Virus record (IMG/VR): IMGVR_UViG_3300023170_000007
Span: 1-64,000 of that record
Reading direction: 5' to 3' (one strand)
DNA from: a virus
Length of the DNA: 64,000 nt
Part shown: positions 43,284 to 57,974 of the stretch, piece by piece
How the letters are laid out: every line of letters begins with the position of its first letter
Numbering within the stretch: position 1 is the stretch's first letter
Notes under the pieces: model-generated
Seen by the model: the letters and a program-made list of their open reading frames with translations, nothing else
What the model was told of the DNA's origin: nothing
Database searches by the model: none
Position numbers and translations under genes: made by a program

Positions 43284-44477
43284 ATGTCAAAAAAGAAGCA
43301 AGACAACAGCGATGAGTTTACCTCTGACCTGATTAAGTCACTGAATAAAGAACATGGTTCTCGAATTGCCTACAATCTGTCAACTGATGAGTCACCAACC
43401 CACGTGAATCGGTGGATTAGTACAGGATCTAAGCAGTTGGATTATATCATCGCGAATCGTCCGAATGGTGGTTTGCCAGAGGGGCGTATTGTAGAGATCT
43501 TCGGGCCGCCATCTATCGGAAAATCTCATATTGCGATTCAAATTGCTCGGTCTACACAGGCAATGGGCGGAATTGTCGTCTATATTGACACTGAAAACGC
43601 AACTAGTGTAGAGAACCTTTCGATGCTTGGTGTCGATATCAGCAAGCGATTTGTATATGTTGACACGCACTGCACAGAGGAGGTTATGTCTATCGCTGAG
43701 TCGACTATTCTCAAGGCGAAGGCGATGGATAAGGATGTACCTGTCACGATCATCTGGGATTCCGTCGCTGCTACATCTCCTAAAGCTGAGCTTGTCGGCG
43801 ACTATGACAAAGAGACAATCGGCTTACAGGCTCGAGCTATCTCGAAAGGAATGAGAAAGATTACAGGCGTAATCGCAAATCAGAACGTGTTGATGATCTG
43901 TTTGAACCAGATTAGGACAAAGATTGGAGTTATGTATGGAGATCCTACTACTACACCCGGTGGTAAGGCAATCCCTTTTCACTCATCTGTACGAATTAAA
44001 CTGGGGGCAGGGCAGCAGATCACGAACAAGAATAAGGAAGTAATTGGAATTCACGTTCGTGCAAAGACTATCAAGAACAAGGTCGCCCCACCTTTTAGAG
44101 AATGTAATTTTGAGATTCATTTCGGAAAAGGAATATTCGAGCATGAGCAGGTGTTCGATGAGCTGAGGAAGTTCGGCGCTGCCACAATAGATGACAAGAC
44201 AATCAGCATTAGCGGAACCGGAAGCTGGAAGTCCCTTGTTGTTGCCAGCGCTTCTACAGGAGAAGTGATTGTTGAAAAGAAGTTCTATAAAGCTGATTTT
44301 GGTGATGTCTGGAATGATCCTGAATATCATGGGTATGTAGAAGCGCTGTTAGAAGCTTGCATGACAAGAAAGCTAGAAAACCCTGCTGACGCTCATCTTG
44401 ACACGGAGTCATACGAAGAAGTGAGAGCCGCTGCTCTCGATCTAGACTTGGATGGTATTGAGGACTTAGATGTCTAA
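43284..44477 (+). CDS. RecA/UvsX-like recombinase
   Basis: A 397-residue strand-exchange ATPase. Walker A GPPSIGKSH is near residue 74; VYIDTEN holds the Glu after strand 2 and VTIIWDSVAA is Walker B. A RecA-type loop region follows (NQIRTKIGVMYGDPTTTPGGKA). It pairs with the SSB upstream and the SbcDC fusion and RuvC at the window start for recombination-dependent replication. Start ATG at 43284 has AGGAG; an upstream ATG would overlap the leader. It ends in an acidic tail and overlaps the next gene by 8 bases. Confidence 0.93.
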   Translation: MSKKKQDNSDEFTSDLIKSLNKEHGSRIAYNLSTDESPTHVNRWISTGSKQLDYIIANRPNGGLPEGRIVEIFGPPSIGKSHIAIQIARSTQAMGGIVVYIDTENATSVENLSMLGVDISKRFVYVDTHCTEEVMSIAESTILKAKAMDKDVPVTIIWDSVAATSPKAELVGDYDKETIGLQARAISKGMRKITGVIANQNVLMICLNQIRTKIGVMYGDPTTTPGGKAIPFHSSVRIKLGAGQQITNKNKEVIGIHVRAKTIKNKVAPPFRECNFEIHFGKGIFEHEQVFDELRKFGAATIDDKTISISGTGSWKSLVVASASTGEVIVEKKFYKADFGDVWNDPEYHGYVEALLEACMTRKLENPADAHLDTESYEEVRAAALDLDLDGIEDLDV

Positions 44478-45417
44478 TGATCGTCCTGTTCTAGTGTTAG
44501 ATGGACTGAATGTCTTCTACAGGCACTGGGCAGCGAATCCCACTATGGATACCAACGGTGAACATGTCGGTGGGATAGTGGGGTTTCTGAAGGGCATACA
44601 ACTGTTGTGCGAAAGGTATCAACCAAGTGATATAGTGGTCACTTGGGAGGGTGGGGGCTCTGTACGCCGGCGAGGGGTAAGCTCTACATACAAGTCTGGC
44701 CGTCGCCCTGCAAAGTTAAACCGCTTTTACGAAGATATACCCGACACTGTCGAGAATAGAAATTCACAAGTAGCAAGACTTGTTTCATTATTACGAAAAG
44801 CTGGAATCAAGCAAGTGTATGTATCTGACTGCGAAGGTGATGATATCGTTGCTTACATCGTAAACGCCGTCTTTAAAGATAAAGAGTGTATTGTCGTATC
44901 AACTGATAAAGATTTTTTTCAATTGATAAACGACAGGGTAAGAGTGTGGTCGCCCGGAAGCAAAAAAGAGTGGAGTATAGAGAGCGTTATCGATAACTTT
45001 GGCGTTCACCCAGAAAATTTTTGTCTCGCAAGATGCTTCATTGGTGACGCCTCTGACGGTCTAAAAGGTGCCCCTGGAGTTGGGTTTAAAAACCTCTCGA
45101 AGAGATTTCCGCAGTTTGGAAATTCTGACAGTCTTACTGTGGATGACATAGTTACTGAATGTGAAAAGCTTCGAGTACAAAAGAGTCTTAAGCTCTATGA
45201 TAATATCATTGAACACGAAGAGAACATACGAAAGAACTGGAAGCTTATGTATCTCGGCTTAGGTAAGTTGTCTGCAAGCCAGGCACAGAAAATAGAGTCA
45301 GCTCTCCAGAACGATACCACCCGTGATAAACTTGGGTTCATCAGAGAACTGATGAAGATACAGATCACTAACGTTGATTATGACAAGCTTTTTATGACCT
45401 TGAAGGTATTAAAGTAG
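44470..45417 (+). CDS. 5'-3' exonuclease / flap endonuclease (T4 RNase H-like)
   Basis: A 315-residue FEN-type nuclease. N-terminal VLVLDGLNVFYR supplies the first metal Asp; SDCEGDDIVAYI and VVSTDKDFFQLI give the acidic clusters; the helix-hairpin-helix follows (GDASDGLKGAPGVGFKN). It would remove RNA primers and flaps on the lagging strand. It corresponds to the nuclease domain missing from the short family A polymerase. Confidence 0.92.
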   Translation: MSNDRPVLVLDGLNVFYRHWAANPTMDTNGEHVGGIVGFLKGIQLLCERYQPSDIVVTWEGGGSVRRRGVSSTYKSGRRPAKLNRFYEDIPDTVENRNSQVARLVSLLRKAGIKQVYVSDCEGDDIVAYIVNAVFKDKECIVVSTDKDFFQLINDRVRVWSPGSKKEWSIESVIDNFGVHPENFCLARCFIGDASDGLKGAPGVGFKNLSKRFPQFGNSDSLTVDDIVTECEKLRVQKSLKLYDNIIEHEENIRKNWKLMYLGLGKLSASQAQKIESALQNDTTRDKLGFIRELMKIQITNVDYDKLFMTLKVLK

Positions 45418-45434
45418 ACTAACAGAGGATTTTT

Positions 45435-46844
45435 ATGCAGCCCGCAACAAGCAAGACAGCAATTTTAGATGATCTGCCCGCCGGCCAGTTCGCACACTAT
45501 AACAAGCCTTTTCAAGAGAAGATCTTTCAAGGCTTGTTGACGGACTTAAACTGGGCCGCTCAGATGGTTGAAGTTATGAGGCCTGATTTTTTCGAGCTGC
45601 GTTATCTAGAATATCTTTGTGATAAGTACTTCAACTACTTTAGAGAATATCGGTGCTTTCCAACTCAATCACTTTTGATTTCGATCATCAAAGATGCGCT
45701 TAGCGAAGACGGCGATATCATCCTAAGGGATCAGATTGTATCTTACTTGATTCGGATGCGCGAGAATCCTAACCCTGGTGATATTGCCTATGTTAAGGAA
45801 AAGTCGTTGGACTTCTGCAAGAGGCAGGCATTCAAGGAAGCCCTTGAGCAGTCGGTAGAATTGATTAGTACTGACAACTTCGAGTCTGTAATCTCGTTGA
45901 TGAAAAACGCTGTATCAATCGGCATGCCGAATACGGTTGGGCACGACTTCTTTGAAGATATTGAAGCTCGCTTTCAGAAGATTGACCGATGTGTATGTCC
46001 CACGGGTATTCCAGAACTAGATGCTAAGGACGTTCTAGCAGGTGGGTTGGGTCGAGGTGAGATTGGGGTCGTTACCGCGAACACAGGTGTTGGTAAGTCT
46101 CACTTTCTTGTGCAGATGGGTGCTAATGCAATGAGAAACGGAAAGAATGTTCTGCATTACACATTCGAGCTGACTGAACAGGCTGTGGGTATTCGATACG
46201 ATTCGAACCTCTGTAATATACCGTCTTCAGATGTTCACGATCACAAAAAGCAAGTCAAAGAGTTTTACGAAAAGAATGAAGACTTAGGACGCTTGATGAT
46301 TAAGGAGTATCCAACTGGTACCGCGTCAGTAACGACCATTAGAAACCACATTGAGAAACTTGCTTTACGAAACTTCAAACCTTCTCTGATACTTATCGAT
46401 TATGCAGACATTATGAGATCAACACGCCAGTATGACTCTTTACGTCATGAGCTTAAGCTTATTTATGAAGAGCTCAGAAATCTTGCAATGGAACTAAGGG
46501 TACCAGTGTGGACAGCGAGCCAAGCGAATAGAGACTCGGCAAATTCTGACATCGTTGGTCTTGAGAATATGTCGGAAGCATATGGGAAGGCAATGGTTGC
46601 TGACTTAGTTGTTTCGCTTTCAAGAAAGGCAACTGAGAAAGCTACTGGGACCGGTCGTATCTTTATCGCTAAAAACCGCGCTGGTAAGGACGGGATTCTT
46701 TTTCCTATACACATTGACACCGCGCGCTCTAGTATTAAAGTAATCGATAGTGAGTCGGCGACTCTCGCTGAAGCCCGCCAGGACGAACAACGCGAGACAA
46801 AAGACCTGATTAGAAAGAAGTGGAAAGAGATTAATAGAGTTTAA
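45435..46844 (+). CDS. Replicative DnaB-type helicase (T4 gp41-like)
   Basis: A 469-residue hexameric helicase. The helical N-terminal domain (about 1-180) is followed by the RecA-like motor: Walker A TANTGVGKSH near 214, Walker B LILIDYADIM, and the sensor region PVWTASQANRDS. The length matches gp41 (475). It would unwind DNA for both polymerase systems and interact with the primase at 342. No loader (gp59) is recognised in this window. Confidence 0.93.
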   Translation: MQPATSKTAILDDLPAGQFAHYNKPFQEKIFQGLLTDLNWAAQMVEVMRPDFFELRYLEYLCDKYFNYFREYRCFPTQSLLISIIKDALSEDGDIILRDQIVSYLIRMRENPNPGDIAYVKEKSLDFCKRQAFKEALEQSVELISTDNFESVISLMKNAVSIGMPNTVGHDFFEDIEARFQKIDRCVCPTGIPELDAKDVLAGGLGRGEIGVVTANTGVGKSHFLVQMGANAMRNGKNVLHYTFELTEQAVGIRYDSNLCNIPSSDVHDHKKQVKEFYEKNEDLGRLMIKEYPTGTASVTTIRNHIEKLALRNFKPSLILIDYADIMRSTRQYDSLRHELKLIYEELRNLAMELRVPVWTASQANRDSANSDIVGLENMSEAYGKAMVADLVVSLSRKATEKATGTGRIFIAKNRAGKDGILFPIHIDTARSSIKVIDSESATLAEARQDEQRETKDLIRKKWKEINRV

Positions 46845-46848
46845 TAAG

Positions 46849-49371
46849 ATGGAGACAGAAGTGTCGAAAACATATACGTACCAAGAAGTATACGCTCGGT
46901 GTCTTGAGTATTTTTCAGGAGACGAGTTAGCAGCTAATGTCGTCGCGACTAAATACTTGCTTACCAATCAAGATGAAGAATTTCTGGAGTTGAGTCCGGA
47001 TGATATGCACCGACGTATTGCTGGCGAACTAGCTAGGATTGAGCAAAAATATCCGAATCCCCTGACAGAGGGTGAAATATACTCTCTGTTAAAAGACTTT
47101 AGTCAGGTAGTTCCTCAAGGCTCTCCAATGTCTGGTATCGGAAATGACCAAAGAATCCAGTCACTATCCAACTGTTTTGTTATAGAGTCACCAGAGGACA
47201 GTTATGGTGGAATCTTGAAGACTGATCAGGAGTTAGTACAGATTGCGAAGCGTCGTGGGGGTGTCGGCTTTGACCTTAGCACAATTAGACCGAAGGGCCT
47301 TACCACAGCCAACGCAGCTAGGACTACAGACGGCATTGAAGTCTTCATGGATAGATTTAGCAATTCGTGTCGAGAAGTCGCTCAGGGAGGCCGTAGAGGG
47401 GCTCTGATGCTAACGATATCTGTTCACCATCCACAAATCCGTGACTTCATAAAGATAAAGCAAGATTTGACGAGGGTGACGGGTGCCAACATCTCTGTTC
47501 GTGTTACAGATGAATTTATGGAGGCCGTACGAAATAACGAAGAAGTCGAGCTTCGATGGCCCGTAGACTCTTCTAACCCGAAGATCAGTGTTGTTGATGA
47601 CGCCGCTGAAATCTGGCACGAGATTATTGAAGGCGCTCACGCTGCCGCAGAACCTGGTGTCCTCTTTTGGGACACTGCAAAGTCCATGACACCTTCTGAT
47701 GTATATACTAAAGAAGGCTTCGGTTCTGTGTCGACAAACCCATGCGGTGAAATTATTCTATCACCATACGATAGTTGCCGGTTGATGCTTGTGAACCTGA
47801 CAGCGTTCGTGAAGAATCCATTCTCTTCTCGTGCTGAATTTGACTTTGACGAGTACTCTAGCGTTGTGATTAAAGCGCAGCGCTTGATGGACGACATGGT
47901 TGATCTTGAAGTTGAGCAAGTCGATAAGATTCTTGACAAGATCGATCGTGACCCAGAGTCTGATCATGTTAAGTATCATGAGAGGTCCCTGTGGAATAAT
48001 ATTCGAACAGCTGCTCTGAAGGGTCGTAGGACAGGGCTTGGGATTACTGGTCTTGGTGACGCTCTTGCCATGATAGGTGTCACTTACGGCTCTGAAGAGT
48101 CTGTTGATGTCGTAGAAGACATTTATAAGACTCTTGCCTTGAACGCTTATAGAAGTTCGTGCACACTTGCGAAAGAACGTGGCGCCTTCGAAGTTTACGA
48201 CTTTGAGAGAGAATCAAACCATAAGTTTATCCAGCGCCTCTATGAAGCAGACCCTGAATTAGAAAAATTGTCGAGAGCCTACGGACGTAGAAACATTGCG
48301 TTAACCACAACAGCTCCAGCCGGATCTGTCTCTGTGCTGACGCAAACAACATCTGGAATCGAGCCAGCTTTCATGCTTCATTACACTCGCCGCAAAAAGT
48401 TGACTGGTCAAGATGCCGATGCTCGAGTAGATTTCGTGGATGATTCCGGCGATAGGTGGCAGGAATATACCGTCTATCACCATGGCTTCAGGCAGTGGAT
48501 GGACACAATAGAGATTGGTGAAGGCGAAACAATGAGCAACGAAAAGCTTGTTGAGATGAGCCCTTATGCCGGCGCAACAGCCAATGAGATTGATTGGGTT
48601 GCTAAGGTCAAGATGCAAGCGGCCGCCCAGAAGTGGGTTTGTCATGCGATATCGAACACCACAAACCTCCCTAACGATATTGACGTGGAGACAGTCAAGC
48701 AAGTGTATATGAAGGGGTGGGAGCTTGGATGTAAGGGAGTAACTGTCTACAGAGATGGTAGCCGTTCAGGGGTTCTTGTCGCTGCTGAAGAAAGTCATGA
48801 TGACCCTCGAGAGTCTTCTGAGATACTTGTTAATACAGCGCCTCGCCGACCCGAAGATTTAGAGTGTGATATACACCAAGCAAATATTAAGGGGGAAGCA
48901 TGGACCATTCTGATAGGCCTTTTGAATGGCCAGCCATATGAGGTCATTGGGGGACTGTCGGAGTACGTAGAGATTCCCAGGAGACACACAACAGGTGTGA
49001 TTAAGAAAAGAGTTAGGAAGTCTGTTCCCTCCAAGTATGATCTCGTTGTAGGATCAAATGGCGATGAATTTATAATCAAGGATGTCGTGAAAGTGTTTGA
49101 TAACCCAAACCACTCTGCGTTCACACGTACATTATCGCTAGCGCTTCGTCACGGTGTACCAGTTCAATATCTTGTCGAACAGTTACAGAAAGATAAAGAT
49201 GCAGATCTGTTTAGCTTCTCTAAAGTAATTGCTAGATGTCTAAAGAAATACATCGCGGACGGTACCAGGGCGAGTAATGGAGTACTAAGCTCTTGCTGCG
49301 ACAGTCCGAATGTAGTATACCAAGAAGGATGTGCCACATGTATTAACTGTGGTATGGCGAAGTGTGGATAA
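46849..49371 (+). CDS. nrdJ: Adenosylcobalamin-dependent (class II) ribonucleotide reductase
   Basis: An 840-residue reductase that makes deoxynucleotides from ribonucleotides using vitamin B12. Conserved parts include SLSNCFV (first active Cys), STNPCGEI near 298 (radical Cys and Glu), and LTTTAPAGSVSVL. The end has the TSCPD-type domain (KGEAWTILIGLLNGQPYEVI) and a cysteine cluster (CCDSPN, CATCINCG) used for re-reduction and zinc. Class II enzymes have no NrdB partner, and none is seen. Two starts are plausible: ATG 46849, or GTG 46861, which has a better GGAG site. Confidence 0.93.
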   Translation: METEVSKTYTYQEVYARCLEYFSGDELAANVVATKYLLTNQDEEFLELSPDDMHRRIAGELARIEQKYPNPLTEGEIYSLLKDFSQVVPQGSPMSGIGNDQRIQSLSNCFVIESPEDSYGGILKTDQELVQIAKRRGGVGFDLSTIRPKGLTTANAARTTDGIEVFMDRFSNSCREVAQGGRRGALMLTISVHHPQIRDFIKIKQDLTRVTGANISVRVTDEFMEAVRNNEEVELRWPVDSSNPKISVVDDAAEIWHEIIEGAHAAAEPGVLFWDTAKSMTPSDVYTKEGFGSVSTNPCGEIILSPYDSCRLMLVNLTAFVKNPFSSRAEFDFDEYSSVVIKAQRLMDDMVDLEVEQVDKILDKIDRDPESDHVKYHERSLWNNIRTAALKGRRTGLGITGLGDALAMIGVTYGSEESVDVVEDIYKTLALNAYRSSCTLAKERGAFEVYDFERESNHKFIQRLYEADPELEKLSRAYGRRNIALTTTAPAGSVSVLTQTTSGIEPAFMLHYTRRKKLTGQDADARVDFVDDSGDRWQEYTVYHHGFRQWMDTIEIGEGETMSNEKLVEMSPYAGATANEIDWVAKVKMQAAAQKWVCHAISNTTNLPNDIDVETVKQVYMKGWELGCKGVTVYRDGSRSGVLVAAEESHDDPRESSEILVNTAPRRPEDLECDIHQANIKGEAWTILIGLLNGQPYEVIGGLSEYVEIPRRHTTGVIKKRVRKSVPSKYDLVVGSNGDEFIIKDVVKVFDNPNHSAFTRTLSLALRHGVPVQYLVEQLQKDKDADLFSFSKVIARCLKKYIADGTRASNGVLSSCCDSPNVVYQEGCATCINCGMAKCG

Positions 49372-49383
49372 TAAGGAGTTATA

Positions 49384-49986
49384 ATGCACTGGACAACAGA
49401 AATTGATCCCAAAGTTAAAGAAATAGAACTAAGAAAGCAGCCTGTAATAATCAGGGTCAATAAATTTGATGAAGATTCTGCAAAGAAGTTCGCTCAAGAG
49501 ATGGCACAAGCCCATAACACAGGCCAGAAAGTAATTCCTATTGTCATTGATTCATACGGTGGCCAAGTCTACAGTTTAATGTCAATGATCAGTGCGATAA
49601 AGCATTCAGAAATTCCTGTTGCTACCATCGTAGAAGGTAAAGCGATGAGCTGTGGAGCTGTATTGTTTTCTTTTGGTGAAGAAGGCATGCGCTTTATGGA
49701 TCCAAACGCAACAGTAATGATTCACGACGTCAGCTCCATGGATTTCGGCAAAGTTGAAGAACTAAAAGCGGGAGCGACAGAAGCCGATAGACTTAACACA
49801 ACTATCTACACTATGATGGCTCGTAACTGCGGGAAAAAAGATGACTACTTCATGAAGATTGTAGACAAAAAGAAGCATGCTGATTGGTTCCTCGACGCTG
49901 AAGAAGCAAAGAAACATGGGATGGCAAATCAGCTGCGAGTTCCAAAGATTCATATCAAGGTATCTGTTGATATAGATTTTGAGTAG
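49384..49986 (+). CDS. ClpP-like serine protease
   Basis: A 200-residue ClpP-fold protease. The triad is visible: Ser89 (KAMSCGAVL), His114 (VMIHDVSS), Asp171 (WFLDAEEAKKHGMAN). The length matches ClpP (about 195-207). The nucleophile elbow AMSCG differs from the AASMG of bacterial ClpP. Phage ClpP-like proteins serve as head maturation proteases in some phages, but here a gp21-type protease exists and the gene lies in the metabolic cluster, so host proteome control or partnering with host ClpX is more likely. AAGGAG precedes the start. Confidence 0.88.
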   Translation: MHWTTEIDPKVKEIELRKQPVIIRVNKFDEDSAKKFAQEMAQAHNTGQKVIPIVIDSYGGQVYSLMSMISAIKHSEIPVATIVEGKAMSCGAVLFSFGEEGMRFMDPNATVMIHDVSSMDFGKVEELKAGATEADRLNTTIYTMMARNCGKKDDYFMKIVDKKKHADWFLDAEEAKKHGMANQLRVPKIHIKVSVDIDFE

Positions 49987-49994
49987 AGGGCAAC

Positions 49995-50915
49995 ATGGAC
50001 AAAGTATTCTACAACAAAAGCTCCGCCGATTCATTGGGATGGGATCCCTCGTGGTTCGGAGCAGATGAACATGATGATGATTTAGTAAAAGCAATTAAGA
50101 AGTGGCAAAAGTCTCACGGATTAACTGCTGATGGGTTATGCGGTCCTGCGACGTATAGAAGAATTTGGACAGAGAGAGAAGATGAGATATCAGACTTTTC
50201 TCCTTCCCAAAGCTCATGTCGATCAGGCGATAAGTTTATTGTTCATAACGGTAATTTCCTACCTATAGAGTGGGACAAAGTTGTTCTGTGGGACGAACCT
50301 GATGGTCTAGGATGCAAAGACGGTACTTACACCAGCTATGCCGGGAAACCTGATAGACGACCGCACTATTTTGTTAACCACTGGGACGTCTGCTTGTCTA
50401 CTGAGTCAATGGCAAACGTGATTGCGAAAAGAGGAATATCAATCCATTTTGGTATCGACAATGATGGCACGATTTACCAGCTATTAGATACGCAGCATGC
50501 CGCTTGGCAGGCTGGCGGTAGGAAATGGAATCATGAGAGTATTGGCGTCGAGATTGCAAATGCCTTCTACCCGAAATACCAGAGCTGGTATGAACGTAAG
50601 GGCTTCGGCTCCAGACCTATCAACCCTGCTGGTTCCGTAAAGTGTCACGGTAGAGGATTGGAAGAGCACCTTGGGTTCTATGACGTTCAAATTGACGCTT
50701 TAAAAGCTCTCTGGAAGGCGCTTCACAAAGGGTTAGATATACCCTTACAATGTCCGACTGATTCTTCAGGTGAGCTAATTACAACTGTTGATAAAGAGTG
50801 CGAAAGATCTAGGTTTTCCGGGTTCATAAACCACTACAATCTTACTAAGAGAAAGATCGATTGCGCTGGTCTAGATTTAGCCGCTCTTTTAGATGAGTGT
50901 CGGAGAGAAGTATAA
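49995..50915 (+). CDS. Endolysin: peptidoglycan-binding domain plus N-acetylmuramoyl-L-alanine amidase
   Basis: A 306-residue lysis enzyme. Residues about 28-60 (LVKAIKKWQKSHGLTADGLCG) form a peptidoglycan-binding domain. An Amidase_2-type domain occupies about 115-240, with zinc ligands expected at VNHWDVC and later His residues and the HESIGVEI strand. It ends with HYNLTKRKIDCAG. Having the wall-binding module at the N-terminus is common in phages of Gram-negative hosts. There is no signal peptide, so a holin would be needed. The stop overlaps the glutamine synthetase start. Confidence 0.88.
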   Translation: MDKVFYNKSSADSLGWDPSWFGADEHDDDLVKAIKKWQKSHGLTADGLCGPATYRRIWTEREDEISDFSPSQSSCRSGDKFIVHNGNFLPIEWDKVVLWDEPDGLGCKDGTYTSYAGKPDRRPHYFVNHWDVCLSTESMANVIAKRGISIHFGIDNDGTIYQLLDTQHAAWQAGGRKWNHESIGVEIANAFYPKYQSWYERKGFGSRPINPAGSVKCHGRGLEEHLGFYDVQIDALKALWKALHKGLDIPLQCPTDSSGELITTVDKECERSRFSGFINHYNLTKRKIDCAGLDLAALLDECRREV

Positions 50916-51913
50916 TGGTACATGTTGATTATGTTTGGGTTGACGGACTGGAATCACCCCTTGTGCGTTCAAAGACAAAGATCGTAACTCCATCTGTAAG
51001 CCAGAAAGGTGAAATGGAGATCCAAATTGCTGAATGGACGTTTGACGGCTCCTCGACGAACCAGGCAGTCACAAGCAACTCTGAGCTTTTGCTTAAGCCA
51101 CACAGAGTCTATCAGTTATCAGATCAACACTACATTGCTCTTTGCGAAGTCTGTGATCCAGCTTCTGGAGAACCACACGACACAAATTACCGAGCCGTCT
51201 TAAGGGATAAGATAGCAGAGTCTGGTGACAAGGGACTGTGGGTAGGTTTTGAACAGGAGTTTTTTATCACCAAGAACGACAAGAACGTTTTGTGGCCTAA
51301 GCATGGTCTGCCACCACAGGACACTAGGTACTACTGTTCCTCTGGTGGACCCATCAGACATAGAAAACTTGTGAGAGAACACGCTACGATCTGTAACAAG
51401 GCTGGAATTAGCGTCGTTGGCTATAATACTGAGGTTTCCCCCGGGCAGTGGGAATATCAAGTATTTGCAGAAGATCCGCTAAAGGCTGCTGACGACCTGT
51501 GGGTTAGTAGATACATTCTGCAATTGTGTTGTGAGACATACGACATTGGTATAGATTGGCACCCGAAACCGCACGAGGGCTGGAACGGATCTGGATGTCA
51601 TACGAATTTTTCGACTAACTCCATGAGAGAATCAGGTGGCGAAGAGTTGTTCAGAGCGATTATGGAAACTGCGTCAGCCAAACATTCTGAGCATATGCAG
51701 AACTACGGGAAGTTGAACAGGAGGAGAATGACAGGAGAGCATGAAACATCTTCTTACAGTGAATTTTCGTGGGGCGTCGGTTCCAGAAATACAAGTGTCA
51801 GAGTCCCTGTGGCGACAGCCGAGGAGTGGAAGGGTTACGTAGAAGACCGCCGCCCCGCTTCAAATTGTGACCCTTATAGAGTCGTAAGGTGTGTGCTCGA
51901 ATATGTAAAGTAG
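50915..51913 (+). CDS. Type II glutamine synthetase
   Basis: A 332-residue enzyme of the GSII family (eukaryotes, Rhizobium GlnII), making glutamine from glutamate, ammonia and ATP. Diagnostic blocks are intact: WTFDGSSTNQA (41-51), FEQEFF with E113 and E115, NTEVSPGQWEYQ with E173 and E180, GWNGSGCHTNFST with H229, SRNTSVRVP with R291, and YVEDRRPASNCDPY with E310 and R312. The length is near the family's (about 340-370), so it looks functional. The start overlaps the endolysin stop (TAATG) and the thioesterase follows after 2 bases, so it is embedded in the phage operon. Its role may be to supply nitrogen for nucleotide synthesis. Confidence 0.95.
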   Translation: MVHVDYVWVDGLESPLVRSKTKIVTPSVSQKGEMEIQIAEWTFDGSSTNQAVTSNSELLLKPHRVYQLSDQHYIALCEVCDPASGEPHDTNYRAVLRDKIAESGDKGLWVGFEQEFFITKNDKNVLWPKHGLPPQDTRYYCSSGGPIRHRKLVREHATICNKAGISVVGYNTEVSPGQWEYQVFAEDPLKAADDLWVSRYILQLCCETYDIGIDWHPKPHEGWNGSGCHTNFSTNSMRESGGEELFRAIMETASAKHSEHMQNYGKLNRRRMTGEHETSSYSEFSWGVGSRNTSVRVPVATAEEWKGYVEDRRPASNCDPYRVVRCVLEYVK

Positions 51914-51915
51914 TT

Positions 51916-52353
51916 ATGGAGAATTTAGAACTTATAGCTACTCATATGTGCAAAGAATCTTGTGTCGGATATCATGGTAACCTATTTGGTGGAACCATGC
52001 TGGCATGGTTGGATGAAGCCGGTGTCGCCTTCGCTTCACAAGTCTGCGGTTCGCCAAGAATGGTGACAAAGTCAATATCAGAAGTCATCTTCGTGCGGCC
52101 TGTTCGTCCTGGGCAAATCATAAAGATATACGGTGATGTCGTGAATATTGGCAACACGTCTATTAAGATTAGATTGTTTGCAAGGCGACACAGCGTAGTG
52201 AACGGCTCACAAAAGCCTGTCTGCGATGTTGAGATGACGTTTGTCAGAATTGATGGCGACGGTGAGCCTGTACCAATCTTGAATATAAAAGAAAAGTACG
52301 CTGATAAAAAGCAGAAGATAGAATCTGAAGTAAGAAAAGATATGGAGTATTGA
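51916..52353 (+). CDS. Hotdog-fold acyl-CoA thioesterase (YciA-like)
   Basis: A 145-residue thioesterase. HGNLFGGTMLAWLDEAG is the hotdog signature with its catalytic Asp, and VIFVRPVRPGQIIKI is the following conserved block, as in YciA/Acot enzymes that hydrolyse acyl-CoA. The C-terminal 30 residues are charged. The ATG 2 bases after the synthetase stop was chosen; a GTG 27 bases upstream inside that gene is possible. It sits between glutamine synthetase and ThyX in an unbroken operon. Possible roles are releasing CoA or altering membrane lipids, unproven. Confidence 0.88.
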   Translation: MENLELIATHMCKESCVGYHGNLFGGTMLAWLDEAGVAFASQVCGSPRMVTKSISEVIFVRPVRPGQIIKIYGDVVNIGNTSIKIRLFARRHSVVNGSQKPVCDVEMTFVRIDGDGEPVPILNIKEKYADKKQKIESEVRKDMEY

Positions 52354-53102
52354 TGTTAGATAGAGTTGAATTGTATGGCGATGGTATTGGAACAGTAGAG
52401 TACGTCGAGCACATGGGCAATGATTTGACAATCGTCAATAGCGCCAGAGTTTCATTTGGAAAGCACAAGGAAGAGTTAGATGAGAAAGACGAGAAGCTTA
52501 TTAAGTACCTTGTTAACCACGGCCACACGAGTACGTTCGAGCATAATGTTGTCACTTTTCGCTTTGTGGTTCCTCTCTTTATTAGGAGCCAGCATCACCG
52601 TCATAGGACTTGGAGTTATAACGAGATTAGCAGACGGTATACTGACGTTGATCTAAGGTTTTATGAACCGGATAGTTTTAGGACCCAGCACAAGAGTAAT
52701 AGACAGGCAAGCAACGTCCAAGAAGAGGTGGATCCTGTAATAATACCTGACTTAAGTGACGCTGGCTATGGGACGAGAGCATCACAAGTAGTGAGAGAGC
52801 ACCATGTCCAGAGCTTGAACCTTTATAACAGTTTACTGTCAGCGGGAGTTTGTAGAGAGCAGGCACGAGGGGTGCTTCCTCAAAACCTCTACACAGAGTA
52901 TTACGGGACATGTTCATTACATAACGCTCTTCATTTTTGTCGTCTCCGATTGCACGAGGGCGCCCAGTGGGAAATTCAAAGAGTGGCTGAGGCCATGGTA
53001 CAAATAATGTCGACATTGTATCCTGTCGCTGTGTCTGCGTGGATTGACAACTTGGATGATAAAGACCTCCGAAAAAAAATGAAAAAAAATATTAGCCTGT
53101 AA
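52353..53102 (+). CDS. thyX: Flavin-dependent thymidylate synthase
   Basis: A 249-residue ThyX making dTMP from dUMP with FAD and folate. The family signature RHRTWSYNEISRRY is near residue 84, fitting RHRxxSxNExSxRY. The C-terminal NALHFCRLRLHEGAQWEIQ and the last conserved Arg/His are also present. The length is typical. The start shares a base with the thioesterase stop (TGATG). Together with NrdJ and the dUTPase-like gene it directs nucleotide flow to dTTP. A terminator follows. Confidence 0.96.
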   Translation: MLDRVELYGDGIGTVEYVEHMGNDLTIVNSARVSFGKHKEELDEKDEKLIKYLVNHGHTSTFEHNVVTFRFVVPLFIRSQHHRHRTWSYNEISRRYTDVDLRFYEPDSFRTQHKSNRQASNVQEEVDPVIIPDLSDAGYGTRASQVVREHHVQSLNLYNSLLSAGVCREQARGVLPQNLYTEYYGTCSLHNALHFCRLRLHEGAQWEIQRVAEAMVQIMSTLYPVAVSAWIDNLDDKDLRKKMKKNISL

Positions 53103-54906: not shown

Positions 54907-55692
54907 ATGGCAATAGTAATTAGAGCAAGCGGAACTTCACTGGAAGTCCCCAGTTCACCAACGTCAGACTTTACTACCGGTCTGTCTGCTAGATACCTAT
55001 TCACGTCAGACGCATCAGACTCGTTAGGGAACTATGATACAATGACAGCCGAATCTGCTGTAACTTATGATAGTAGTAACGGCGTTTACTTTGAGAAAAT
55101 TGGAAACACAAGTAGGATAAGTCTTGGTGCTGACAGCACATCAACGTCGGCATCTAAGTTACTGAATGATATCGGTACCAACGACGGCACAATATCATTC
55201 TGGCTAAATCCTGACACGAATCAGATAGATGATTCGGGCAATGATGCTTCGTTCATCCTTGGCTCTTACGCTGGTTCGACTATAGGCACCCGAGGTCCCC
55301 AGTTTGGGTACTTCGACGATCAACCGACCGTCAATGGTGACAAGGGCGGGTGGCATTTCTTTAGCCGAGTTGGGACCGGTTCATCCTTTGAAGGTGTTCT
55401 TTGGGAAGGAGATTCCGGGACTACTTGGGTACATATAGTATTCACTTACGATAGTGCAACCGACACAGCCAAGCTTTACAAAGATGGAAGCCTAGCAGAT
55501 ACGCAAACGTTTGCTAACGGTTTTCCTCAAGATCGCCGAGAGTGGATAATGAACGGTTCAGCCCAAAGCCCAACCGCTTCAACACTACAGTGGGAGGGAT
55601 ACTTTAAAGACCTCAGCATTTGGGACGGTCGCATCTTAACAGCAGACGAGATCAGTGATCTTTACGACAACGGTCACGGCGGCAGCTACTAG
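54907..55692 (+). CDS. LamG/concanavalin-like protein 1 (putative adhesin)
   Basis: A 261-residue protein with the LamG/ConA-like jelly-roll pattern: ARYLFTSDASDSLGNYD, DGTISFWLNPDT, WVHIVFTYD, AKLYKDGSL, and the ending KDLSIWDGRILTADEISDLY. Such domains bind sugars or proteins. It begins a tandem array of four paralogs. In this location they are likely receptor-binding or virion surface-binding modules. AAAGGA precedes the start. Confidence 0.8.
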   Translation: MAIVIRASGTSLEVPSSPTSDFTTGLSARYLFTSDASDSLGNYDTMTAESAVTYDSSNGVYFEKIGNTSRISLGADSTSTSASKLLNDIGTNDGTISFWLNPDTNQIDDSGNDASFILGSYAGSTIGTRGPQFGYFDDQPTVNGDKGGWHFFSRVGTGSSFEGVLWEGDSGTTWVHIVFTYDSATDTAKLYKDGSLADTQTFANGFPQDRREWIMNGSAQSPTASTLQWEGYFKDLSIWDGRILTADEISDLYDNGHGGSY

Positions 55693-55701
55693 GGAGGAAT
55701 T

Positions 55702-56442
55702 ATGCCGATAATATTTAAGGTAAGTCGCTCCATAGACTTTACAACAGATCTCGTGGCTAGGTATCTTTTTACGTCAGACACATCAGATTCGCTTGGAAAT
55801 TATTCAGATGTATACGCTGGTTCTGGTGTTACCTTTGATTCATCTGGGGCACGTATGCAGACCACCTCGAACCATAAGATCAAATTTGGCGCTGATGGTT
55901 TATCGAATCTATCGACAACATTGAATGATCTAAACGGTGTTGGGGGGACGATATCATTCTGGGTTAAGATGAACACAGGGTACACCGCTGGTGGGACTGC
56001 TGATAATCGTTATATCTTTGGTTCTTACAGAGGCGGGTCAGCCAACCAGCGTGGGGTCCATTTTGGGTACTTTGACCAAAACAGCGTTCTCGCTAGCGGC
56101 GCAGGCGGATGGCATTTCTTCAATAGCGCCAGTCCAGCCTCGGCCGGATATGAGGGTATCGTCGCGACTGGTGACTCTGGTACTTCTGAGGTGCATATAG
56201 TCGTTACTATAGACAACGGTGACTTCCGCATGTACAAAGACGGCTCGCTGGTAGGTACCGAGACTGCAAGTTACTGGCCTGAATATTCTCTTGAGTGGGA
56301 GGTAAATGGCTCTGCTGGAAGCTACCTTACCTCGCGTATGTTCGATGGGTGGTTCAAGGACTTGTGCGTGTGGGATGGAAGAGTGTTGTCAGCAGCAGAG
56401 GTAGCGGCGTTGTACAGCAATGGATCTGCTGGAAGCTTTTAG
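55702..56442 (+). CDS. LamG/concanavalin-like protein 2 (putative adhesin)
   Basis: A 246-residue paralog of the preceding gene: ARYLFTSDTSDSLGNYSD, TISFWVKMNTG, VHFGYFDQ, HIVVTIDNGDFRMYKDGSL, KDLCVWDGRVLSAAEVAALY. It is the closest relative of copy 1 in the array; the central loop regions differ most, as expected if binding specificity is under selection. It starts 9 bases after copy 1 with GGGAGG. Confidence 0.8.
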   Translation: MPIIFKVSRSIDFTTDLVARYLFTSDTSDSLGNYSDVYAGSGVTFDSSGARMQTTSNHKIKFGADGLSNLSTTLNDLNGVGGTISFWVKMNTGYTAGGTADNRYIFGSYRGGSANQRGVHFGYFDQNSVLASGAGGWHFFNSASPASAGYEGIVATGDSGTSEVHIVVTIDNGDFRMYKDGSLVGTETASYWPEYSLEWEVNGSAGSYLTSRMFDGWFKDLCVWDGRVLSAAEVAALYSNGSAGSF

Positions 56443-56450
56443 GGGGAAAC

Positions 56451-57245
56451 ATGCCAATCATATTTAAGATAGATAATATAATCGACAACTTGGTATCTGC
56501 GATAAATTCTCGCTGGAAGCTAGAGACAAATGCTGATGACTCTGTAGGTTCCAACGACGGCACTGTTGTTTCTGCGACTGGTGCTGGTACAGACGTTTCA
56601 TTTGGTACCGCTGGGGATACTTCTGCTGCAATCTTTGCGGGAGGACAAGCCAACCAGCACGTCAATGGAAAAATATCTCTTCCAACAGCAGCAACAGATG
56701 ACTTTAACTTTGAATATGGTTCTGGGACGATATCTTTTTGGGTAAGACCTGCAAACATTTCAACGTTTTACATGTTGTCAGATTACGCACCTTCATCTGA
56801 ACCGGATGGGTTTGCGTTCTGGCAAGCAATGGACTACTACAGTTATAAGTACGATGAAGAGGGACCGGCCACCCGGCTTCTCTTGATAAGTTCTCCCTCA
56901 TCGGACAGCTTAGCAGGATCGGTCTTAGCGGCTTCAAACACTCGGGTTTCCGCTAACAACTGGTCTCACATATGTTACGTAAAGAACCATAACGTGAGTA
57001 CATTGTACATAAACGGTGAGCCGGTAGAGCAGAAAGTATGGAATGACAACAGGCCGTTTGTCAGCAGCGCTTCTTCGCTGGTACCGGGATCAACTAGAAA
57101 TGTTGGCATCGGTTCTCAGACGGGAACAGTTGGGCAAAGGTATCCGGGAGCTATAAAAGATGTCATTGTTGCCAAGGGTTACGCGGCGAGCTCTCTTCAA
57201 GTCAAGCAGCTTTATTTAGCTGGTAACGAAGCACCTGATCTATAG
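56451..57245 (+). CDS. LamG/concanavalin-like protein 3 (putative adhesin)
   Basis: A 264-residue member, the most diverged: SRWKLETNADDSVGSNDGTV, TISFWVRPANIS, WSHICYVKNHNVSTLYINGEPV, KDVIVAKGYAASSLQVKQLY. It keeps the LamG core but has a different first strand and lacks the SLGNY element. The ATG at 56451 shares its MPIIFK start with copy 2, and GGGGG lies just upstream; in-frame upstream codons overlap copy 2 and are not part of the gene. Confidence 0.78.
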   Translation: MPIIFKIDNIIDNLVSAINSRWKLETNADDSVGSNDGTVVSATGAGTDVSFGTAGDTSAAIFAGGQANQHVNGKISLPTAATDDFNFEYGSGTISFWVRPANISTFYMLSDYAPSSEPDGFAFWQAMDYYSYKYDEEGPATRLLLISSPSSDSLAGSVLAASNTRVSANNWSHICYVKNHNVSTLYINGEPVEQKVWNDNRPFVSSASSLVPGSTRNVGIGSQTGTVGQRYPGAIKDVIVAKGYAASSLQVKQLYLAGNEAPDL

Positions 57246-57254
57246 GAGAGAACT

Positions 57255-57974
57255 ATGATTATTGTTAGAGCAAGCGGAACCTCATCGGAATCCCCTAATT
57301 TTACTACCGATCTGTCTGTGAGATACCTTCTAACTTCGAACTACGATGATTCCGTCACTTCTGATTCTGCAACTGCAGTCAGCTCGCCAGACGGAGTTAA
57401 TTCTGAAGGCTTTTCGTCGAGTCAGGGGTATCTTCAGATGCCGAGCTCATTCGCATCCGCGATGTTTTGGGACACTGGAGACGGTACTCTGTCTTGGTGG
57501 AACACTTTTGATGAAGTACCCCCTACAAACAACGTCTACGCTTTTACAGATCGTGAAGGTGGAAACTCCAACGATACAGGGGCTATAAGCATTTATCTCG
57601 GCGGAGATTACCTCCGGTTTTATAGGAACTACGAAAATTCACAAGGTAATTACGGTCCATCCATGACAAGAGCTGAGTCAGGGCTAGATTATACCTCGCC
57701 TTTTCAGCAGAACCATATCGTCTTAGTTAAGGACACGACATCATCGACTATGAAGGTCTACGTGGACGGTGCCGAAGTCGATTCTGTGGCCTGGGGCTCA
57801 ACCGATCAGTGGGTGATCAGCGCATCCAGGACATGGTACATAGGAAACTATAATACGGGTACTTATTATGATTGGCCTGGTAGAATCGCGGATGTAGCTG
57901 TGTGGAAAGGACGTGCACTTAGCGCTAGCGAGGTAACCGCACTCTACAATAAAGGCCAGGGCGGAAGCTACTAG
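57255..57974 (+). CDS. LamG/concanavalin-like protein 4 (putative adhesin)
   Basis: A 239-residue member whose start (IIVRASGTSSESPNFTTDLSV) repeats that of copy 1, while its middle (GTLSWWNTFDEV, QNHIVLVKDTTSSTMKVYVDG) differs. It ends ADVAVWKGRALSASEVTALY. The alternation of first-strand types (1 and 4, 2 and 3) hints at more than one duplication step. GGAGAG precedes the ATG. Confidence 0.8.
   Translation: MIIVRASGTSSESPNFTTDLSVRYLLTSNYDDSVTSDSATAVSSPDGVNSEGFSSSQGYLQMPSSFASAMFWDTGDGTLSWWNTFDEVPPTNNVYAFTDREGGNSNDTGAISIYLGGDYLRFYRNYENSQGNYGPSMTRAESGLDYTSPFQQNHIVLVKDTTSSTMKVYVDGAEVDSVAWGSTDQWVISASRTWYIGNYNTGTYYDWPGRIADVAVWKGRALSASEVTALYNKGQGGSY

Follow-up and report, generated by a model that had tools for sequence, protein, structure and literature searches.

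Glutamine synthetase (GS) has been described in 9 of 25 moraphages (PMC12619734), as glnA in jumbo phages (PMC13037316) and also in Microcystis viruses (PMC12542629), with ocean viromes given as a further source in a review (PMC9083009). In the open-access literature searched, no paper on a phage or viral type II GS (GSII) was found. Eukaryotic GSII is described as devoid of the adenylylation loop of bacterial GS, and in the Medicago enzyme the loops Gln136-Trp141 and Trp145-Gly155 are given as the connections between rings, with the segment Trp141-Gly152 named for ring contacts (PMC3975887). The authors speculate that movement at that segment is tied to substrate binding and cooperativity (PMC3975887). 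Here, we describe a GSII gene in a stretch of 64,000 bases (the window), which corresponds to bases 1-64000 of a virus record of 180,375 bases.

The glutamine synthetase gene and its surroundings

The GS gene is part of a same-strand run from about 43284 to 53102, which encodes RecA, an exonuclease, DnaB, RNR, ClpP, an amidase, GS, a thioesterase and ThyX. From RecA to ThyX, the genes are separated by 2-17 bases or overlap by 1-8 bases. The features of this region are, in window coordinates:

45435-46844, + strand: DnaB-type helicase (PF03796, E 4.7e-23), found in 66 of the 80 ClpP loci considered below
46849-49371, + strand: adenosylcobalamin-dependent ribonucleotide reductase (RNR; TIGR02504, 512 bits, cut-off 400)
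49384-49986, + strand: ClpP-type protease of 200 aa (PF00574, E 3.3e-27), a conserved upstream marker of the lineage
49995-50915, + strand: N-acetylmuramoyl-L-alanine amidase (endolysin) with a peptidoglycan-binding domain (PF01510, E 2.1e-16; PF01471, E 2.4e-06)
50915-51913, + strand: GSII of 332 aa, ATG start, with an alternative GTG at 50897
51290-51361, + strand: GS codons 126-149, the inter-ring loop and following segment, remodelled in the phage clade of the window
51916-52353, + strand: 4HBT thioesterase, ATG start (PF03061, E 7e-16)
52353-53102, + strand: FAD-dependent thymidylate synthase ThyX (PF02511, E 1.5e-49; TIGR02170 above cut-off)

The open frame containing GS spans 50897-51913 when counted from the GTG, but the ATG at 50915 is the likelier start, and a candidate ribosome site (GGAGAG) is found just 5' of it. 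A preliminary description had proposed that the amidase and GS genes overlap in a TAATG junction, which is borne out at the base level, the TAA of the amidase occupying 50913-50915 and its final base being common to the ATG of GS. Two bases lie between the GS stop and the thioesterase ATG (51916), and the thioesterase stop and the ThyX ATG (52353) have one base in common.

Genes for portal (phrog_213), major head (phrog_138) and head-tail adaptor (phrog_211) proteins in the window indicate a tailed phage, and we take the portal and major head proteins to be of the T4 type. The 180-kb record is probably a piece of a jumbo phage genome of at least 281 kb, because an IMG/VR contig of 280,913 bases (IMGVR_UViG_3300022935_000005) encodes GS and phosphoenolpyruvate (PEP) carboxykinase proteins identical to those of the record. 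No RNA family matched the window at the gathering threshold and no transfer RNA genes were found in it; seven are present further along the record, including tRNA-Gln, -Glu and -Asn.

The gene order around GS is repeated in IMGVR_UViG_3300020054_000008 and in the 280,913-base contig, records that may not be independent samples. Divergent versions of this order are present in further viral contigs, and in 3300018421_000017 the GS gene is flanked by the same gene families as in the window. Since the order recurs in other viral records, chimera and contamination are excluded for the GS locus as far as sequence can tell, which confirms the earlier argument drawn from the shape of the operon. The base composition of the gene is also genome-like (GC 0.471, against a mean of 0.457 and a standard deviation of 0.03 over 83 genes).

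A simple script gave 269 open frames on the record, which are not gene predictions, and Pfam was run on 40 of them outside the window and 10 inside. The cell-type gene set found is broad, including a superoxide dismutase domain, UvdE, MgtC, UDP-galactopyranose mutase and a sulfotransferase. In record coordinates, the features are:

65715-66926: UDP-galactopyranose mutase
73682-74395: superoxide dismutase C-terminal domain
85709-87286: Cpn60
91559-92242: second ClpP
92865-94040 (L148:9865-11040), + strand: tubulin/FtsZ-like protein (Pfam E 7.4e-5, FtsZ model E 3.7e-7, both below cut-off)
110077-110943 (L149:8077-8943), + strand: cysteine synthase-type PLP enzyme (CysK/CysM, E 4.5e-80 to 3.1e-71, below cut-off)
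118207-118872: MgtC
119326-120798 (L149:17326-18798), + strand: ATP-type PEP carboxykinase of 490 aa (PF01293, E 2.6e-162), with the P-loop GLSGTGKTTL
136893-137756: sulfotransferase
158582-159520: UV endonuclease UvdE

For PEP carboxykinase, IMG/VR contains 4 stretches from 3 loci, of which two are identical and the third is at 56%. Eight phage records also match, including the metagenomic huge phage LR756504 (40%); the Staphylococcus, Salmonella and Escherichia records among them are presumably host DNA. Past the metabolic run, the window contains related neighbouring genes (54907-57974), those at 54907, 56295 and 57255 forming one cluster, which 55702-56442 resembles by eye. We guess that they encode LamG-like adhesion proteins.

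Type II identity, ancestry and selection

The Pfam model Gln-synt_C (PF00120) recognizes the protein with 78 bits (cut-off 24, E 9.3e-22). Gln-synt_N reaches 20.6 bits, under its cut-off of 33.4, and the N-terminal beta-grasp domain is supported by the structural model, which aligns to GSII structures across residues 1-332. This AlphaFold2 monomer model, built with 50 sequences, has a mean pLDDT of 94.0 and a pTM of 0.92. All 50 Foldseek matches listed came from GSII-bearing entries, and VIA-align gave a Z of 42.5 to both 4bax and 2d3a, with GSII ranging from 35.1 to 42.5 and the other GS among those listed from 29.8 to 31.7. In the PDB sequence search, the 16 best chains are glutamine synthetases (E 1.4e-73 to 1.5e-66), including plant, yeast, animal and Streptomyces GSII, while the other 28 GS chains listed have E values of 9.5e-14 or weaker. 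We take these 16 chains to be of type II, some of them by their titles. With 332 aa, the protein is of the short form and lacks the additional C-terminal part present in GSI.

Catalytic residues are found at D44, E113, E115, E173, E180, H229, R271, E277, R291, R296, E310 and R312, and the agreement with GS as a whole goes well past what chance could give. When 75 rows were compared, 18 of 19 active-site positions had the GSII residue in all 14 rows of the core clade containing the window; the remaining one (maize Y328) is kept in 13 of the 14 and also varies among the 61 others. The positions D56, S59, Y158 and E297 (maize numbering), which we take to be those of the ammonium site, are fixed in 14/14 core rows and 61/61 others.

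The protein misses the 500-bit cut-off of the NCBIfam GlnII equivalog model, scoring 290.5 bits. Another member of its clade (L250) has 268, a member of the second, tail-bearing viral clade 323, three bacterial relatives 390-417, the yeast GSII 430 over the aligned stretch, and only the Streptomyces protein (657) is above the cut-off, the clade of the window thus having the lowest scores among the proteins tried. Because the yeast enzyme and the three bacterial relatives miss it as well, we regard this cut-off as a rule of naming suited to a single bacterial branch, and not as something that defines GSII. By sequence, fold and residues, the window gene is an intact GSII with predicted activity, and the complete enzyme with substrate and metal residues first described there was found again as an intact frame.

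An alignment of 112 rows was prepared, leaving out fragments or remote sequences (L008, L128, L135, L137, L140, L141 and L143), frames over 600 aa and a copy of the window itself (L081); 82 of these rows were kept next. The GS tree contains 77 rows hand-picked from the alignment rows, 105 further GS frames and L331. The window falls within a group of 16 phage rows (support 99/92), whose 14-row core has a support of 100/100 and a stem that is 0.70 changes per column long. The tail-bearing GSIIs are in a second group, made up of 29 viral rows (93/90). No cellular row of the 77-row tree is found within either viral group. The union of both groups in one clade was not rejected (p-AU 0.332), which leaves one or several entries into phages compatible with the tree.

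The best bacterial identity is 47-48%, mostly with Saprospiraceae, among 62 loci of genome_contigs that were retrieved by exact matches to six short peptides from the window protein, a scan that may miss nearer donors. A recent transfer from a bacterium was considered and rejected, since no bacterial relative exceeds 48% in these loci and the phage groups are free of cellular rows. The suggestion of a recent acquisition in the preliminary description is thus not upheld; the phage-only group and the low bacterial identity in the scan made are better read as a sign that GS is a long-standing phage gene.

Synonymous sites are saturated in 9 of the 16 pairs in which dN/dS was calculated. The measurable pairs gave 0.034 (L245/L247), 0.071 (window/L003, with 1 nonsynonymous and 3 synonymous changes), 0.018-0.065 (four tail-clade pairs) and 0.2 (L013/L019, with two changes in all). 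Values are therefore below 0.1 in 6 of 7 measurable pairs, and the ratios indicate that GS is under purifying selection. It is scarcely credible that the gene is a contaminant or a chance recent pick-up without function: its patchy presence in the lineage (see below) is all that was found in favor of this, whereas the same place and order in other records, the genome-like GC, the phage-only group and the low dN/dS values are all against it.

Distribution in viruses and accessory status

An IMG/VR scan with the window protein found relatives in 582 stretches, and a second scan, with a four-row alignment as query, in 240; the best 80 of each were fetched, their viral status being that of the database. 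Among 50,697 phage records, 18 match the window GS, four of them at the GSII level (39-44% identity) and the remaining 14 with 22-31% identity. These four are all from uncultured huge phages, two of them being records of 735,411 bases with the same match, and among the 50,697 records no named isolate matched at the GSII level. Phage GSII is thus common in uncultured viral contigs and rare only within this phage set. Its supposed rarity in phages does not survive the number of IMG/VR relatives, and GS from moraphages and jumbo phages was already published. In plasmids, 353 records match, the best 8 of the 353 being rhizobial with 42% identity.

In the second viral clade, many members share a recurrent ELLxEYRxD-like motif in the C-terminal tail. 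Two GSII contigs binned as bacterial may be viral. One, from a Pelagibacter bin (L112), opens with a baseplate hub/tail lysozyme gene (phrog_430, E 7.1e-47). The other, from a Methylophilaceae bin (L141), shares a gene family with viral loci and has its GS frame split in two; the one protein of it tried in a PHROG search gave no match.

We used ClpP to follow the lineage with and without GS. IMG/VR contains 358 relatives of the window ClpP, and the best 80 of them, with 78-100% identity, were retrieved. By tblastn, RNR is present in all 80 loci (three at only 22-23% identity), DnaB in 66, the amidase in 60, the thioesterase in 36, GS in 25 and ThyX in 15, counts that are lowered by short loci. 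Besides the 25 loci with GS in the fetched flank, 12 are uninformative and 43 lack it in spite of having at least 3.3 kb of downstream DNA, that is, 43 of 68 informative loci. In 42 whole records, GS is present in 15 and absent in 27, including records of 293, 242 and 236 kb; as the 42 were hand-chosen from the 80 loci, mainly for length, 15/42 is a biased rate. The order of amidase, GS and thioesterase differs among L183, L204 and L219. The ClpP tree gives four changes of state, a rough number, with 6 of 60 inner branches starred (forcing two). Since ClpP loci mostly lack GS and gene order is variable, GS is, judging from these loci, one of several swappable genes following a conserved DnaB-RNR-ClpP replication block. 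A functional pair of ClpP and GS was dropped as an explanation, ClpP being mostly without GS in the 80 loci.

The gene is of cellular type and not one required for the virion or for replication; it shares the window with virion genes and is absent near ClpP in the 43 loci mentioned above. An auxiliary metabolic gene, as first proposed, remains the best reading of this intact phage-borne GSII under purifying selection, through which host metabolism would be changed during infection.

Inter-ring loop, predicted role and comparison with known systems

The 61 other GSIIs have 111 columns that are at least 90% conserved, and the 14 core rows diverge at nine of these (maize 22, 69, 144, 154, 155, 161, 168, 299 and 301). 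Five of the nine are within maize 144-168 and are changed in at least 13 of the core rows. In the region 136-157, 3 of 4 conserved columns are changed (hypergeometric P 0.0015, a descriptive value because the region was picked after the changes were seen). At 144, 154, 155, 161 and 168, the basal group members L183 and L331 still have the ancestral residues, which suggests that the change took place inside the phage group. In the loop, model confidence is among the lowest, still 83-88. On this alignment, the changes of the clade cluster in or beside the loop joining the two pentamer rings, with catalytic residues untouched, and an altered ring assembly is predicted for it.

We give a nearly even chance to a plain active GSII forming normal decamers, in which the loop changes are neutral drift of a fast-evolving clade, an explanation compatible with our main reading. 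Only nine columns diverge, the lineage is highly divergent, as the saturated synonymous sites indicate, and the loop is surface-exposed, with a documented flexibility (PMC3975887). On the other hand, drift alone does not account well for the clustering of the diverged columns, even with the region chosen post hoc, nor for the ancestral residues of the two basal members. A bolder proposal, which we regard as rather doubtful, is that of a phage-bred GSII with catalysis kept and the inter-ring contact rebuilt, working as isolated pentamer rings or as a double ring of a new kind. Such an enzyme would be uncoupled from the ring-linked cooperativity of cellular GSII, immune to host GSI control and favored by selection in jumbo phages as a glutamine pump without regulation.

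The same changes could reflect a GSII-derived gamma-glutamyl ligase, joining glutamate to an amine other than ammonia, for instance in the synthesis or modification of a metabolite or base. The long stem of the core, the clade-specific changes in the segment adjoining the tyrosine at maize 158 and the use of amines by other enzymes of the GS fold (GmaS, 7cqn, 9qur) would agree with it. We consider it quite improbable, since all tested ammonium- and glutamate-site positions are kept in the 14 core rows, those of the ammonium site arguing directly against a switch to a larger amine. Moreover, no base-modification gene was recognized by Pfam among the immediate neighbours of GS, and the changed positions fall within the inter-ring loop of a solved GSII or next to it (PMC3975887). 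Very improbable is a non-catalytic binding or regulatory protein, interfering, for example, with host nitrogen sensing or with the assembly of host GS. GS proteins are reported to act as regulators in Gram-positive bacteria (PMC9249791) and the remodelled loop would suit such a role, which would require neither the catalytic residues nor the purifying selection observed.

Our main reading, which we consider likely, is that of a working GSII. The phage would express it alongside its replication, nucleotide and lysis genes, and in the infected cell the enzyme, with ammonia as its amine substrate, is predicted to make glutamine out of the host's glutamate and ammonium. As eukaryotic GSII is described without the adenylylation loop (PMC3975887), we infer that the phage enzyme should escape host control, and glutamine free of that control would be the benefit. 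Counting against this reading are the GlnII scores, the lowest of the proteins tried, and the absence of GS near ClpP in most informative loci. In two pelagiphage infections, host glnA, gltB, gltD and amt are reported to rise (PMC12753301), which suggests, for that other system, a real glutamine demand in infected cells.

The glutamine would feed glutamine-dependent enzymes of the host for nucleotides, as well as phage protein synthesis. Three families of amidotransferases and asparagine synthase, GATase (PF00117), GATase_6 (PF13522) and Asn-synthase (PF00733), have no match on the 180-kb record, itself probably partial, while they were matched in 14, 14 and 11 of 14 control genomes, respectively. 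Nucleotide use would for this reason probably run through host enzymes, and among these families there is no partner enzyme on the record pointing to a specific use of glutamine. The link with nucleotide synthesis made in the preliminary description is plausible, and phage protein synthesis is an equally possible use; the cysteine synthase-type enzyme and the tRNA-Gln, -Glu and -Asn genes fit amino-acid supply as well as nucleotide supply.

We regard this GS as ordinary as an enzyme and interesting for where it occurs; the gene is real, widespread and accessory and has long resided in phages. It suggests that large uncultured phages have long and repeatedly taken over ammonia assimilation, which would then be more than a curiosity, and the closely related phages with and without GS offer a well-bounded test set. 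The change at the ring contact is the part worth testing; if the prediction is true, the phage enzyme would be a natural experiment on why cellular GS builds double rings.

Compared with the solved GSII of Streptomyces coelicolor (4bax), maize (2d3a), yeast (3fky) and human (2qc8), the window protein shares the fold over residues 1-332 (Z 41.1-42.5, rmsd 1.4-1.7), the catalytic residues and the length, but is only 38-40% identical to them, is encoded in a phage operon and has the inter-ring loop region changed. The nearest cellular relatives found are the GSII of Saprospiraceae and other Bacteroidota, Verrucomicrobiota, Myxococcota and others (62 loci, L082-L143), which are 39-48% identical, except for the remote L143 (29%). 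They have the ancestral loop, and those in the tree fall outside the phage groups. The large second clade of IMG/VR GSII (L009-L080 and more from the second scan) is likewise found in uncultured viral contigs, and a DNA-methyltransferase family, with one representative identified, is present in 57 of its loci. Its proteins are 44-49% identical to the window GS and differ in having the ancestral loop and an extra C-terminal tail (372-457 aa versus about 332). The huge phages LR756501, LR745206 and LR756502, metagenomic records of 635-735 kb, also have a GSII, 39-44% identical to that of the window and occupying at least two separate places in the tree. The GS of moraphages (PMC12619734) and jumbo phages (PMC13037316), compared here by description only, is likewise a metabolic gene of large phages.
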